A stretch of DNA of 50,276 nt from NCBI GenBank assembly GCA_003246455.1, contig QKAF01000096.1, positions 1 to 50,276 on the forward strand. The letters are read 5' to 3'. Below, piece by piece: positions 26,379 to 31,667 of the stretch; the stretch's first letter is position 1, and each line of letters begins with the position of its first letter. Source of the stretch: Bacteroidota bacterium. Lineage in GTDB: Bacteria > Bacteroidota > Ignavibacteria > SZUA-365. A program made the translations under genes and the position numbers. The notes below the pieces were generated by a model. That model was given only the letters and a program-made list of their open reading frames with translations. It did not search any database and was not told the origin of the DNA.

Positions 26379-26403
26379 AAAAAAGGCGCCCTCGGGCGCC
26401 TTA
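26376..26403. terminator. Bidirectional terminator between convergent genes
   Basis: AAGGCGCC/GGCGCCTT arms (26383-26390 and 26395-26402) with a CTCG loop, flanked on the left by a run of A. Read on the minus strand the hairpin is followed by a U-run and ends the gene 26401-28056, whose stop codon is in the hairpin. It also lies at the stop of the plus-strand gene. Confidence 0.75.
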
Positions 26404-28056
26404 CCGTTTCTGCAGTTTGAGGGCGAAATCGAGGACGGTGTCGCGGTGATCGAGAAAATCCCGGTATTTCTGCGATACCGGGTAGTCGGGAGCGATGCCC
26501 CGGTTGATATCCATGTCTTTTACCGCGGTGACAAATGTCGCGGTCGGCACGAGCATGAGCAGGCGCGAATGGGAGAGGTGGAGTTCATGCGCAGCAGCGT
26601 TGCAGGCAAAGGTCCCGCCGGTTTCCGTACCGATCATGGTTCCGATGCCATGATATTTGAGCAATGCGCAGAAGTGCGCAGCCGTCGAGAAGTTGCTGCC
26701 GTCGATCAGGGTAATGAGCTGACCGTCGAACGGCGGATCGGCCCGGGGAATCACATTGGCGAGCGCCGCGTACTTCCCGTAGGGCTTCGCGAAATACGGA
26801 GTCGGTTCCTGCTCGAGATGCGCGAACAGCGCGGCGGCGCAGAAGGGATCTCCGCCGTCGTTGCCGCGGAGATCGAGGATGAGCCGGCCAATCCCCCGGT
26901 CCCGAATGACCTGGAAGCAGCTGTCTAAAAAGGAGCGGAACTGGTCCTCACGCTCGTAATAGGAAAAACTGGTGATGGTCAGCACCGCGGCGGAATCCTT
27001 TGCCCGCAGGTCGAACAGCAGCTGCGGCGCAACGAAAACCGAGGCGCGCACTGCGTCGATGCCCGCGGAACGCAGCGTCGCCGTGGCCGAGGTCTTGCGG
27101 CCGGGGAGCGCGTACAGGACGGTATACCGGGGCGGGAAACCGTACGTCCGGGCGAAGAGCATCGGGAAGCGGCGTTCGACCTGCACCATGCGGAAGTGCG
27201 GATTGAACGCGTCCGCCGTATACATGTCCGCCAGCTCGCGTGTAATTTCATTCATCGGACGGCCGTTGATCTCCAGGATGATGCTCCCGATCGGGACCTC
27301 CTGCTCGCTTCCGTAGTACCCCACGACGACCGGATAACCCTCCATCATGCGGATGCGGAGGGGGAACAGCCGGTCGCCCGCGTAGGTCCAGTAGGCCTCC
27401 GACATCCAGAGGCTGGAGTGCCCGCACCCGATTGCGGCCGCGATGGGCGCGACGACATGGTAGAACTCGTGCGGCTGCATGGGACGGTCGATAAGCCGCT
27501 GCTGGCGATCGAACAACGCGTCGAAGTCGGGCCTGGCAGTATGCGCGTACAGACAGCAATGCCGGTTTTCCAGCGTCTGCCTCAGCTGCGCGAAATCCTC
27601 GTGCAGTTCGCGCATCGGGAACATCACCGGCATCCCCACGGCTGCCAGATCATAGCGGTCGATGATGAAATTCCCCACCTCCAGGTCCTGCGTGCGTCCG
27701 GTAAGCAGCAGCCGGCGGTTGCCGAAGGGTGCGTTCGCGGGATCAGGCTGCCATTCCCAGAAGACGCGTCCGTCGGGCTTGAGTATGAGATATTTGTATT
27801 CGACACTGGTGCCGGAATCGCCGTGGAGGGAGAACACGCCGGAATATTTTCCATCCGTTTCCTCGTCTTTCAGTTCATAGCGGTCGCCTTCCCAACCGGA
27901 AAACGTTCCGCGCAGAATGACACGATCGCCGTCTTCCGGTGCAAACAGCTCCCAGTCCTTCGCATCGTTCATATCGACACGAAAATGGATATCATTTTGC
28001 GGTCGCGCGATTCCGGCTGCGAAGGGGAGCAGCAGAAAGAGCAGGATCCACCGCAT
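26401..28056 (-). CDS. S41-family peptidase-like protein with starch-binding-like N-terminal domain
   Basis: 551 residues with GGAGG before the ATG. A signal peptide (about 1-19) is followed by a domain of about 100 residues (RVILRGTFSGWEGDRYELKD, YKYLILKPDGRVFWEWQPD) resembling CBM20/48 carbohydrate-binding folds. The rest resembles C-terminal processing peptidases: a PDZ-like patch (VPIGSIILEINGRPM), LILDLRGNDGGDP, and LIDGSNFSTAAHF with Ser457 near the expected nucleophile, then GTETGGT. It should act outside the cytoplasm. The natural substrate is unknown. A Bacteroidota-style promoter and a leader hairpin lie upstream. Confidence 0.8.
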   Translation of the reverse strand: MRWILLFLLLPFAAGIARPQNDIHFRVDMNDAKDWELFAPEDGDRVILRGTFSGWEGDRYELKDEETDGKYSGVFSLHGDSGTSVEYKYLILKPDGRVFWEWQPDPANAPFGNRRLLLTGRTQDLEVGNFIIDRYDLAAVGMPVMFPMRELHEDFAQLRQTLENRHCCLYAHTARPDFDALFDRQQRLIDRPMQPHEFYHVVAPIAAAIGCGHSSLWMSEAYWTYAGDRLFPLRIRMMEGYPVVVGYYGSEQEVPIGSIILEINGRPMNEITRELADMYTADAFNPHFRMVQVERRFPMLFARTYGFPPRYTVLYALPGRKTSATATLRSAGIDAVRASVFVAPQLLFDLRAKDSAAVLTITSFSYYEREDQFRSFLDSCFQVIRDRGIGRLILDLRGNDGGDPFCAAALFAHLEQEPTPYFAKPYGKYAALANVIPRADPPFDGQLITLIDGSNFSTAAHFCALLKYHGIGTMIGTETGGTFACNAAAHELHLSHSRLLMLVPTATFVTAVKDMDINRGIAPDYPVSQKYRDFLDHRDTVLDFALKLQKR

Positions 28057-28220: not shown

Positions 28221-30086
28221 TCAGAGCGCGGGGACCGCGGCTTCCGGGGCGTCGTCGAAGATTTCGAACGGGCTCAGCTCCCGCAGACGCTCCTCGAGCA
28301 GTTCGAGTTCGCTGCGCATGCGGTTCAGCATCTGCTCCGATTCCTCGCGGATATCGGGAATCAACCCGTGGTAGTAGGCGATGCCGTCCATCAGGTTTTC
28401 ATGGAAGCTGTGCAGCAGCGTACGCGCTTTCGAATGCAGGGAGTCGACCCGGGTGTGGAGTCCCTCGACATGTTTTTCGAGCATGCGCTGATAGTAGTCG
28501 ATATACAGCTGCAGTTCCTTGATGAACATGTTCGGGCGATCCGGATCGCTCATGAGGTTGAAGCGGCCGTAGATGTGGTCGACCATTTCACGGAGCGTGG
28601 CGACGCTTGAAAAATAGGCGAGATTGGGACCGGGACACACCGAGACGGCCTTGCTCAGCTTCGGCAGTTCGATGTTGTTGACGGTCAGGGCGCTGACCGT
28701 CAGCCCTTCGCACAGACACGCCTTTGCCGTCGCCGCCTGGAAGGCGTCGCGATACTCGGCGGTATGCTCCATATGCCGTTCGCGAAGTCCGGCGATCTTC
28801 TTTTTGAGATAGGTAATCGATGCGGTGCAGAGGGGCTTTTCGGAAAGTTCGGTATTGAGGGAAAGGAATTTCTTCACGCAGGCGCTGCCGGGTTTCCCGG
28901 CTTCGATCAGGCTCTCTTTCTCGAGGTCCTTGCTGTTCCCGCGCAGATTGTTGAAGGGCACGCCCAGGGGAGAGATTTCGCTCAGGTAGAGGTCGTCCAC
29001 TTTTGCGACGCGCAGTTTCTCGAGTGTTTCCGGGTCCACATTCATGACTTCCGGCACGAGAAGAAACGGGCTTCCCCAGCCCACCGAACTGACCGCATAG
29101 CGGCGCTGCAGGAATTCATGCTCCCTGATGGTGCCGACGCCGCCCTGAACGGTGACATCGATATGCATATCCTCAGGATTCAGATCCGTCCCGCGCTGCC
29201 GCATCGCCGCGGCGAAGAGCGTCCGCTGCTCGTCGAGCAGTTCGTCACGCCGCGTGAGAAACTCCTCGAGGATCGGCCCGAGCAGGTACCCGTCGGTCGC
29301 GAAGGCATGCCCGCCGCAGTTGAGCCCGGATTCGATACGGTATTCTGAAATCCAGAGGCCTTTCTTGGCCATGAACTTGCCCTGGATCATCGCCGATCTG
29401 AAGTCGCTGACCTTGATCGTGATGCGCTTTTTCAGGTATCCGCTGGGGTCGGGATAAAAATCGTCGAACTGGCCGCAATAGCTGTAAAGACGCGGGTTCA
29501 TCCCGGCCGAAAGCACCACCGCGCTGTCGAGATCGCTCATGGCGAAGCCCCGGAGCGAGGCATGGGCGTCGTTGAATTCCGCCGGAAGCGCGACCCCTTC
29601 CCGTGTGCGGTTCGCCTTGTCGACTTTCGTCATGATGTTGACGTCGATCGAGCCGGGGGTGACGCTCGCGCGAAGATGCTCCTGCTCGGCTTTTTTCAGC
29701 TCCGGGTCAGGATTCGCGAGCATCGAGATATACTGCCGCTTCAGCGGAGACCGGTCGGGGAGCAGCTGAAAATACGTGTGGAGTTCGCTGCCGCTTTCGA
29801 AACCGCTCTCGCGCATCCGTTCGAAGTCCGTGTCCACGATGCGTTTGATCACGTTGAGGTACGCGGTCGTGCGGCGCGCGCGGGCGTCGTGCTCGCGTTC
29901 GTCGATCGGGTCGAACTCCCATCCGTAGCGCTCACAGTAGTGCCTGCGGAGGTTTTCCATCAGCCCGTCGTCGACGAGCGAGACAACAGAGGAGATCCCG
30001 TAGCGTGCCACCTTGACAGGAGCGTCGACAGAAAACCCGACGCCGAGAACCGGGATATGAAACGTGTGGTCTGATGTATTGGGCAT
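28221..30086 (-). CDS. Unrecognised protein, 621 residues, possibly FMN/TIM-barrel related
   Basis: The family is not recognised with confidence. The start at ATG 30086 has GAAAG ahead of it; a TTG at 30149 would add 21 residues. The N-terminus (FHIPVLGVGFSVDAPVKVARYGISSVVSLVDDGLMENL) recalls nitronate monooxygenase-like flavin barrels, and SGLNCGGHAFATDGYLLGPILEEFL with VQGGVGTIREHEFLQRRYAVSSVGWGSPFLLVPEV supports a barrel with a GGH signature. There is a cysteine-bearing stretch (CTASITYLKKKI, ACLCEGLT, VCPGPN). The last 120 residues are predicted helical, with coiled-coil character and acidic ends. No signal peptide, so probably cytoplasmic. It has no clear operon partner; the TPR lipoprotein is 93 bases upstream on the same strand. 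Confidence 0.6.
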   Translation of the reverse strand: MPNTSDHTFHIPVLGVGFSVDAPVKVARYGISSVVSLVDDGLMENLRRHYCERYGWEFDPIDEREHDARARRTTAYLNVIKRIVDTDFERMRESGFESGSELHTYFQLLPDRSPLKRQYISMLANPDPELKKAEQEHLRASVTPGSIDVNIMTKVDKANRTREGVALPAEFNDAHASLRGFAMSDLDSAVVLSAGMNPRLYSYCGQFDDFYPDPSGYLKKRITIKVSDFRSAMIQGKFMAKKGLWISEYRIESGLNCGGHAFATDGYLLGPILEEFLTRRDELLDEQRTLFAAAMRQRGTDLNPEDMHIDVTVQGGVGTIREHEFLQRRYAVSSVGWGSPFLLVPEVMNVDPETLEKLRVAKVDDLYLSEISPLGVPFNNLRGNSKDLEKESLIEAGKPGSACVKKFLSLNTELSEKPLCTASITYLKKKIAGLRERHMEHTAEYRDAFQAATAKACLCEGLTVSALTVNNIELPKLSKAVSVCPGPNLAYFSSVATLREMVDHIYGRFNLMSDPDRPNMFIKELQLYIDYYQRMLEKHVEGLHTRVDSLHSKARTLLHSFHENLMDGIAYYHGLIPDIREESEQMLNRMRSELELLEERLRELSPFEIFDDAPEAAVPAL

Positions 30087-30179: not shown

Positions 30180-31667
30180 TCAATCGATACGCTCCAGTGC
30201 CTTGTCACGGATCAGCGCATATTCGATGGTATTGAAGTCCCAGTTTCCGACCTCACGGAACAGCTGCTGGGCCTCGGCCGTGCGCCCGAGAGCGTCCAGC
30301 GCCAGGGCGCGGCAGTATTTCACTTCGATCAGGTCAGGGTTCGATTCATCGAGATGCTCGAGTGCCAGGGCGAAATCTTCCTGAGCCAGCAGGATTCTCC
30401 CGATGAGCAGTTCGGTATTTTCCTTCTTCCTGGCGTTGCGAATGTCGCGGAGGAAGTCGATCGAACGGTCGGTATGTCCCATCGCCGCGATAAAGTCGCC
30501 GCGCTGCAGCGCAAGGCGGCCTTCGAGCAGGGCGATCTCCGATTCCGTCGTCTGTGTGAAGCTGGGAGTATTGATCTGCTGTGCGATGGCGCGGGCGAAA
30601 CGCCGGTACATCGCCAGCGCGTCTTCGGCGTCGCCGAATTTCCGTGATTCGACGCACATCAGGAAGCGGTTGTAGGCGGTGTTTCGATATGGAAGGAAAT
30701 CCACGTTTTCGTCATACCCGAGGAGGGGAAGGCTGCTGAGCAGGGAAGCGTTCGCACGGACGGCATCGTCGTTCCGCCCCTCGTACAGCCAGGTGAAGGT
30801 GCGGAAATTTGCCGCACGCGATTTCGCCGGACCGATACCCAGGTCCGTGGCGCGGGCAAAATCCCTTCTCGCATCGTCGTAGAGGCCGATGAATGTCAGG
30901 GCATGTCCGCGTTTGACATAGGCGAGGAACGATTCCTTGTCGACGGTCATTGCGCGGGTGTATTCCCCGCGAGCGAGTTCGAGGCGCAAATCTGCGCGGT
31001 AGACATCACCGAGGAGTATATGCGAATCGGCCTCCTCCGGATAGCGATGCACGTAGAGTTCGGCAAAGCGCTCCGCTTCATGCAGGTTGCGCGGTTCCTC
31101 GAACAGGTACGAGGTGGCCAGCGACCGGAGCGCAGGGGCGAACAATCCATTAAGTTCGATGGCCTGCTCAAGCATCGCGCGTTCCTCGTAGGTATTCCTG
31201 TTCTCCGCGAGCGCGGTCGCGTATTCGAACAGGGCGCGCGGCCCCTTGGGAAAACGGTTTTTCAGACGGCGCGCAAGCGTGGTGTATTCCTGGAGATCGT
31301 TCTGCGCACCGGCTTTCAGCATGCCGATAAGCAGCTGTTCGCCGTCCGAAGCCCCGGAGGCATACGACTGTGCCAAATCCGTATACCGTCTCCATTCCGC
31401 GGACGACGTCGCTGTTCGTGCGCGGTAATAATACGCCACGGCGAAGGCGCTGTCGGCCGCGATCGCTTTGTCGAAGAGCGCTCCCGCATCGTCGCTTCGT
31501 CCCACGTCGTACGCCTGGCGCCCCTTGAGAAAGAGAGCCCTGGCGTCCGTTGATGTTGTGGTGATGGGTATATCGCTGTCCTCGTTGTCGGCCGCACCGC
31601 AGCCCGGGATCGAAGCGGTCAGCAGACAGGCGAGCAATATAACGGGCACGGCAGGGGAAGGTCGCAT
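30180..31667 (-). CDS. TPR-repeat lipoprotein
   Basis: 495 residues. A lipoprotein signal (hydrophobic run then ASIPGC, lipid-modified Cys23) is followed by an Asp/Thr-rich linker and many helix pairs of the tetratricopeptide type, for example ARALFLKGRQAYDVGRSDDAGALFDKAIAADS and LARGEYTRAMTVDKESFLAYVKRGHALTFIGLYDDARRDFARA. TPR proteins are scaffolds for protein contacts. It should face the periplasm or sit on the outer membrane. No enzyme domain is seen. It is divergent from the sensor kinase at 31952. Confidence 0.82.
   Translation of the reverse strand: MRPSPAVPVILLACLLTASIPGCGAADNEDSDIPITTTSTDARALFLKGRQAYDVGRSDDAGALFDKAIAADSAFAVAYYYRARTATSSAEWRRYTDLAQSYASGASDGEQLLIGMLKAGAQNDLQEYTTLARRLKNRFPKGPRALFEYATALAENRNTYEERAMLEQAIELNGLFAPALRSLATSYLFEEPRNLHEAERFAELYVHRYPEEADSHILLGDVYRADLRLELARGEYTRAMTVDKESFLAYVKRGHALTFIGLYDDARRDFARATDLGIGPAKSRAANFRTFTWLYEGRNDDAVRANASLLSSLPLLGYDENVDFLPYRNTAYNRFLMCVESRKFGDAEDALAMYRRFARAIAQQINTPSFTQTTESEIALLEGRLALQRGDFIAAMGHTDRSIDFLRDIRNARKKENTELLIGRILLAQEDFALALEHLDESNPDLIEVKYCRALALDALGRTAEAQQLFREVGNWDFNTIEYALIRDKALERID

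Follow-up and report, generated by a model that had tools for sequence, protein, structure and literature searches.

The window (the whole stretch of DNA analysed, 50,276 nucleotides) carries on its minus strand a reading frame that runs from 30086 to 28224, with a stop codon at 28221-28223, and whose translation gives 621 amino acids without an internal stop. The N-terminus of the encoded protein is MPNTSDHTFHIP. A TTG located 63 bases upstream of the ATG offers an alternative start that would yield 642 aa, but the ATG is considered the better choice because homologues start a few residues from it. In 27 relatives aligned over their full length, identity to the 621-aa protein ranges from 86 to 47%, and 44 columns are invariant in a conservation set of 215 sequences (165 + 30 + 20, including three loci at least 90% identical to discovery copies and a few other near-duplicates); this conservation identifies the frame as a true gene. 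The source genome (4.1 Mb, 165 contigs) contains a single copy. Its neighbours in the window, a TPR protein (30180-31667) and an S41 peptidase (26401-28056, minus strand), are uninformative. In the latter, a weak, sub-threshold match of the starch-binding type precedes the peptidase part.

Searches of family libraries returned no real match. Pfam yielded nothing above chance for either the protein or its profile, and the nitronate monooxygenase (NMO) family PF03060 was absent among Pfam matches up to an E-value of 1, its gathering cut-off not being reached. NCBIfam gave no match to the protein, the cut-off of the FabK equivalog TIGR03151 included; PADLOC gave none, and PHROGs gave chance matches only. 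No relative was detected among PDB sequences, where neither the single sequence nor its profile reached FabX at E-values of 10 or less, or in phage, plasmid and viral collections. Besides chance matches, the sequence libraries gave only matches of the coiled-coil type (apolipoprotein, HR1). As judged by titles and abstract openings, no paper listed in the literature searches described this protein family. The preliminary description of a well-formed 621-residue frame without a recognisable family therefore stands on both counts, in view of the stop-free translation, the ATG shared with homologues and the conservation on the one hand, and the silence of Pfam, NCBIfam, PADLOC, PHROGs and PDB sequences on the other.

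The gene is nevertheless common. It was matched in 29 of 61 genomes of relatives (the source genome included) and in 112 of 296 near-complete genomes sampled from the phylum, and a scan of a species-genome collection produced at least 580 confirmed matching stretches. The 80 loci kept among the matches listed fall in Bacteroidetes/Bacteroidota, Ignavibacteria, Chlorobiota, Calditrichota and Cloacimonetes, as well as in Omnitrophota, Planctomycetota, Sumerlaeota and a metagenome-assembled genome (MAG) labelled 'Thermus/Deinococcus group'. Some genomes depart from a single intact copy: G201 has two intact copies (on C25 and C31), and G147 has one intact copy plus a second broken by several stops (C1:4371167-4372859). 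One in-frame stop each occurs in G032:C8:2417-4213 (L008, TAG) and G062:C50:2122-3939 (TGA), through assembly error or as a pseudogene; L008 was left out of alignment A1. A protein so highly conserved and so frequent (more than a third of the sampled genomes) that has no family model in the searched libraries represents a gap in genome annotation.

The structure was predicted with AlphaFold2 from an alignment of 78 sequences (A2), for which 77 of the 80 loci were used and L035, L075 and L090 were excluded because of a stop within the matched stretch; a further alignment, A4, comprises 54 of these 77 loci. The resulting model (mean pLDDT 89.7, pTM 0.91) shows a TIM barrel, then a Cys-bearing subdomain and then a helical tail. 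With Foldseek, the best matches were PfaD (1.8e-9) and FabX (2.2e-9), followed by FabK, NMO and the enoyl reductase domains of fatty acid synthases. With VIA, the top match was H. pylori FabX (Z 22.9, rmsd 3.1, 336 of 363 residues), and five FabX entries gave Z values of 21.4-22.9 and rmsd of 3.0-3.1, with 323-337 residues aligned over model residues 1..508. The runners-up were FabK (Z 19.7-20.9, rmsd 3.8-5.1), NMO (19.5) and PfaD (19.1); the lead of FabX, 2 units over the best FabK and 3.4 over NMO 2gjl, is a modest gap. Since 336 of the 363 FabX residues are aligned, reaching model residue 508, most of its C-terminal subdomain (residues 267-363) must be matched, and the VIA alignment on the predicted model reproduces the FabX order of TIM barrel followed by C-terminal subdomain. 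When residues 346-621 were folded separately (pLDDT 83), Foldseek returned no match at E 0.001, and VIA listed helical bundles only (Z up to 12.4, uninformative for such folds), FabX being absent from that list. The coordinates of the predicted parts and conserved motifs are collected in the table below.

Table. Features of the 621-aa protein gene in the window, and loci of comparison.
Feature	Position or locus	Strand	Basis or remark
Whole gene, 621 aa and stop	28221..30086	-	ATG start matches homologues
Residues 1-345, predicted NMO/FabK/FabX-type TIM barrel	29052..30086	-	Model and fold matches; barrel end read from secondary structure
Residues 68-141, four-helix run within barrel part	29664..29885	-	Secondary structure of model
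Residues 252-260, ESGLNCGGH, active-site-type motif	29307..29333	-	E252, C257 and H260 in 215/215
Residues 314-341, QGGVGT...GWGSPF, presumed FMN phosphate-binding loops	29064..29147	-	Conservation; loops of family B and, through them, of FabK/FabX
Residues 346-508, presumed [4Fe-4S] subdomain	28563..29051	-	FabX structural alignment to residue 508
Cys403, presumed cluster ligand	28878..28880	-	215/215; aligned to family B Cys
Cys420, presumed cluster ligand	28827..28829	-	215/215; aligned to family B Cys
Cys457-Leu-Cys459 (CLC), presumed cluster ligands	28710..28718	-	215/215; aligned to family B CLC
Cys484 of CPGPN, fifth Cys of subdomain	28635..28637	-	215/215; no family B counterpart seen
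Residues 520-611, antiparallel three-helix bundle	28254..28529	-	Model; generic helical matches only
Operator-bearing loci	L043, L054, L064, L073, L074, L081, L089, L093, L095, L100, L107, L174, L187, L195, L202, L225, L230		Upstream of gene
Family B member	L144:706-2268	-	
Family B member	L145:778-2301		
Family B member	L146:722-2287		
Family B member	L147:719-2158		
Family B member	L148:322-1875	-	

The 44 invariant columns include E252, C257, H260, Q314-G316, G336, C403, C420, C457, C459, C484 and E524, with the six Cys and H260 unchanged in all 215 sequences. Taken together, the predicted model and the conserved motifs display an FMN-type barrel, glycine loops and an active-site His as found in the NMO superfamily. 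Direct sequence searches with the 621-aa protein gave no usable E-value for NMO, FabX or FabK, and an hhalign comparison of its family with 43 FabK-type sequences was not significant (E 0.021) and misaligned. A search for FabX orthologues by Cys spacing among NMO matches of two genome sets found none in the loci examined.

A partial bridge is provided by family B, a group of five FabK-related proteins of about 490 aa that are likewise nameless in the searched libraries. Its relation to FabK is evident (hhalign 4.3e-19; phmmer 9e-8 to a FabK and about 1e-5 to FabX), with matches to TIGR03151 far under the cut-off in the two members scanned. It carries a C-terminal motif, C-x19-C ... C-L-C, and is likely to be an iron-sulfur flavoprotein as well. 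Profile alignments between the two families gave E-values of 0.0029 and 0.0045, with an HH probability of only 8-11%. The glycine loops, C403, C420, C457 and C459 are collinear with family B in both alignments and the GGH in the second (E 0.0045). Judged by its motif and by this alignment of GGH to GGH, His260 corresponds to the catalytic His182 of FabX. C403, C420, C457 and C459 are probable cluster ligands, because they fall on family B counterparts in both alignments.

These results modify the preliminary description, whose overall interpretation is supported in part. It had placed an NMO-like barrel in the N-terminal third; the barrel is upheld by the model, by the fold matches to FabX, FabK, PfaD and NMO and by the GGH, QGGVGT and GWG[ST]PF motifs, but it spans over half of the protein (approximately residues 1-345). 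The Cys-bearing part had been regarded as foreign to that family, which does not hold: FabX has a [4Fe-4S] subdomain in this place, according to the available part of its structural report (PMC8626469), and family B has four Cys in the same order. The predicted helical end is indeed present, as a generic three-helix bundle with no specific match.

The gene neighbourhoods of relatives were surveyed within 5 kb at 181 loci, 165 of them distinct at 90% identity. Neighbour genes were ORFs identified by a simple script rather than curated predictions; they were named by Pfam and NCBIfam searches on representatives, with NosF, NosY, FixI and NosZ named from context and sequence. Among the 165 loci, Rrf2, ScdA (with a hemerythrin domain), NadA and NadB were found 14 times each, an ABC ATPase group including NosF-like proteins 11 times, HemN 8 times, NosD, NosL and NosY-like proteins 7 times each, CcoNO and a FixI-like ATPase 6 times each, ThiC 4 times, and an Fnr-like regulator and NosZ 3 times each. 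At least one of these genes is present in 48 of the 165 loci and none in 117. Counted in 2-kb bins outward from the gene, their density falls from 97 to 66, 35 and finally 34 per Mb, for genes that had been preselected as frequent nearby. Similar arrangements occur in distant lineages. An Ignavibacteria MAG (L098) has the order gene, Rrf2, membrane protein, NadA, NadB, and Flagellimonas (L059) the order gene, Rrf2, NadA, NadB; ScdA lies within approximately 3 kb of the gene both in L057, a Saprospiraceae, and in L083, a Planctomycetota MAG. ScdA acts in the repair of iron centres (review on RIC proteins, PMC9268430). In family f37, Rrf2 and ScdA come first, then the gene and after it membrane proteins; nos genes often lie upstream. 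Downstream of the gene in f37 loci (e.g., L234, L235, L241 and L244) there is a conserved membrane protein (about 405-420 aa) that matches neither Pfam nor NCBIfam, followed in some of them by two short proteins, one with a sub-threshold COX1 match; this downstream group is possibly heme-copper-related.

Co-occurrence was assessed by separate family searches in the same 296 genomes, where removal of a fragment (G334) reduced the gene-bearing genomes from 112 to 111, against 185 without the gene; the 2x2 tests ignore phylogeny. ScdA_N was found in 75 of the 111 gene-bearing genomes and in 41 of the 185 others (odds ratio 7.3, p 9e-15). The corresponding counts were 54 and 44 for NosZ scoring above cut-off (odds ratio 3.0, p 1e-5) and 86 and 88 for a desaturase (odds ratio 3.8, p 4e-7). 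The ScdA association persists in genomes with and without the desaturase (odds ratios 4.2 and 15), whereas the desaturase association is seen only in genomes lacking ScdA (odds ratio 5.0) and is gone in those that have it (1.4, p 0.50). For the 112 gene-bearing genomes, DNA with wide flanks was taken at 100 places. ScdA lies within 5 kb of the gene in 13 of 75 genomes (0.21 expected), all 13 in family f37. For NosZ, 16 of 54 genomes have it no more than 15 kb away (0.4 expected), and these are spread over four families. In the source genome of the window, the family searches detected neither ScdA_N nor a desaturase, and no NosZ match exceeded the cut-off. Use under low oxygen or nitric oxide (NO) is supported in several lineages, though not for the window's own genome.

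Part of the gene family also appears to share an upstream operator. The palindrome ATGA[CT]N4[AG]TCAT (ATGAYN4RTCAT) has the TGA-N6-TCA spacing of Crp/Fnr-type operators, for which the HcpR consensus in the available part of PMC1274295 served as comparison, and occurs within 300 bp upstream in 17 of the 165 loci, against an expectation of 1.07 derived from how dense it is in this DNA. Classical FNR, CRP and NsrR-like operators were found upstream of the gene in none of 164 loci. ATGAN6TCAT was the best of many patterns tried, with an uncorrected p of 2e-5 that is not significant when corrected for approximately 14,000 possible patterns. It was retained because all hits within 300 bp also had the inner Y...R, because, among the further sites, some lie ahead of Rrf2, ScdA, Fnr-like, cbb3 and FixI-like genes, and because a held-out set confirmed it. 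As the operator had been discovered in the same data, it was tested on new genomes. A first held-out set, from one order and mostly other families, contained it in 0 of 30 loci; in held-out family f35, where 3 of 20 loci at least 90% identical to discovery copies had been removed, it was present in 6 of 17 (0.24 expected), with one additional site before NadA. Given these two outcomes, a Crp/Fnr-like operator is well supported in part of the gene family and absent elsewhere.

Considering this evidence, the protein is best interpreted as a FabX-like FMN/[4Fe-4S] oxidoreductase that in many relatives is tied to low oxygen or NO, a reading to which we assign a probability of roughly 0.7. The analysis itself shows the predicted fold, the invariant residues, gene linkage and co-occurrence, and the operator of some lineages; the FMN, the [4Fe-4S] cluster, its ligands and the electron path are putative throughout. 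The protein would be a soluble oxidoreductase of the NMO superfamily acting in the manner of FabX, in which FMN bound in the TIM barrel may exchange a hydride with an organic substrate beside His260, perhaps with participation of Cys257. Electrons would pass singly via a cluster held by Cys of the C-terminal subdomain, and would be given or taken by a soluble carrier rather than by NAD(P)H. In many relatives, the enzyme would belong to a gene set for low oxygen and NO stress.

Narrower forms of this reading differ in the reaction they propose. Whether the role is defence against NO, biosynthesis without oxygen or help to iron-sulfur enzymes, the data favour none decisively, although the ScdA association, the sturdier one, leans to NO. 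Tentatively, the protein may be a nitrosative-stress enzyme whose cluster-fed FMN reduces or removes a nitro, nitroso or nitronate product of NO. Nitronate chemistry occurs in the NMO superfamily, which favours this proposal, as do the adjoining ScdA, Rrf2 and nos genes and a ScdA co-occurrence that holds with and without the desaturase. In addition, the available part of PMC1274295 counts dnrN (ScdA) and nos among the core genes of the NO regulon. However, 36 of the 111 gene-bearing genomes have no ScdA, the gene is also found in anaerobic phyla, and NadA/NadB, ThiC and cbb3 neighbours would suit low oxygen equally well. An unlikely alternative is oxygen-independent biosynthesis in the style of FabX, which would supply unsaturated acyl-ACP, or something similar, under conditions where desaturases that depend on O2 fail. 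FabX is the closest fold, the desaturase is enriched in gene-bearing genomes, and HemN, cbb3 and Fnr-like genes are among the neighbours; yet the annotated frequent neighbour clusters include no fatty-acid gene, the desaturase link disappears within ScdA-bearing genomes, the source genome has no desaturase match, and identity to FabX is just about 20% in the structural alignment.

Two further proposals concern the iron-sulfur side of the protein. It could assist iron-sulfur enzymes that are sensitive to O2 or NO, like NadA and ThiC, for instance as an electron donor or cluster-repair reductase; NadA-NadB adjoin the gene in Flavobacteriaceae, the Ignavibacteria MAG and other lineages, ThiC does so in four Omnitrophota loci, and ScdA, with its role in iron-centre repair (PMC9268430), and Rrf2 lie near it in other loci. 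This role is rather improbable, considering that the invariant GGH of the barrel suggests catalysis on a small molecule and that all these neighbours are missing from most loci. Equally doubtful is that the Cys subdomain forms a zinc site or disulfides and holds no cluster, which would make the protein an ordinary FMN reductase. A predicted model cannot reveal a cofactor, the ligand spacing differs from that of FabX and the subdomain has a fifth invariant Cys, all compatible with such a site, but the best structural match is the cluster-bearing FabX and the gene surroundings are rich in iron-sulfur genes.

If the protein is a FabX-like enzyme of low-oxygen or NO conditions, it would constitute a second branch of the FabX flavin/iron-sulfur architecture and point to a reaction so far unrecognised among facultative and denitrifying Bacteroidota. 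A bolder proposal, which we hold at somewhat less than even odds, is that these proteins form a class of FMN/[4Fe-4S] enzymes of their own, as yet without a name. Its marks would be a separate cluster motif (C-x16-C...C-L-C plus CPGPN), an additional Cys in the active site and the helical tail. The class would occur in more than one-third of the phylum's sampled genomes and in several other phyla, would be partly under Crp/Fnr-type and Rrf2-linked control, and would catalyse an oxygen-independent or NO-protective reaction.

The closest known system is H. pylori FabX, a dehydrogenase/isomerase that acts on acyl-ACP (PDB 7e1q and 9lt5). According to the available part of PMC8626469, it is an NMO-family flavoprotein whose [4Fe-4S] cluster is held by C300, C304, C308 and C320, and its cluster domain stands where FabK has its NAD(P)H motif; the abstract of the same report states that this architecture is absent from all other characterised members. 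The 621-aa protein resembles FabX in having a TIM barrel and a C-terminal subdomain in the same order and the GGH motif. It differs in its low identity, its length (621 versus 363-372 residues), a Cys ahead of GGH (C257), a helical insert and the three-helix tail, and the interval from the conserved Glu to GGH is one residue longer than in FabX, adjoining C257. The FabX spacing CX3CX3CX11C is not that of C403, C420, C457 and C459 with C484. FabX homologues were counted above 50% identity in the available part of PMC8626469, and a Bacteroidales FabX is about 40% identical to HP0773 in that of PMC11300592; the 621-aa protein is far more distant. It is not filed as FabX because its ligand spacing and sequence both fall outside that group. 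With the enoyl-ACP reductase FabK (TIGR03151) and NMO (PF03060), it shares the barrel fold (Z about 20), the GGH and FMN-type glycine loops, but neither profile matches it and its Cys subdomain and tail are extra; by analogy with FabX, the Cys subdomain would correspond in place to the NAD(P)H-binding region of FabK. In PfaD and the trans-acting enoyl reductases, too, helical parts are added to a barrel (Z about 19), at an rmsd of 4 or more. Family B differs in its clear FabK kinship by sequence and in having no counterparts of C484, C257 or the three-helix tail, but has in common with the 621-aa family the GGH motif and a set of four Cys arranged as C..C..CLC.
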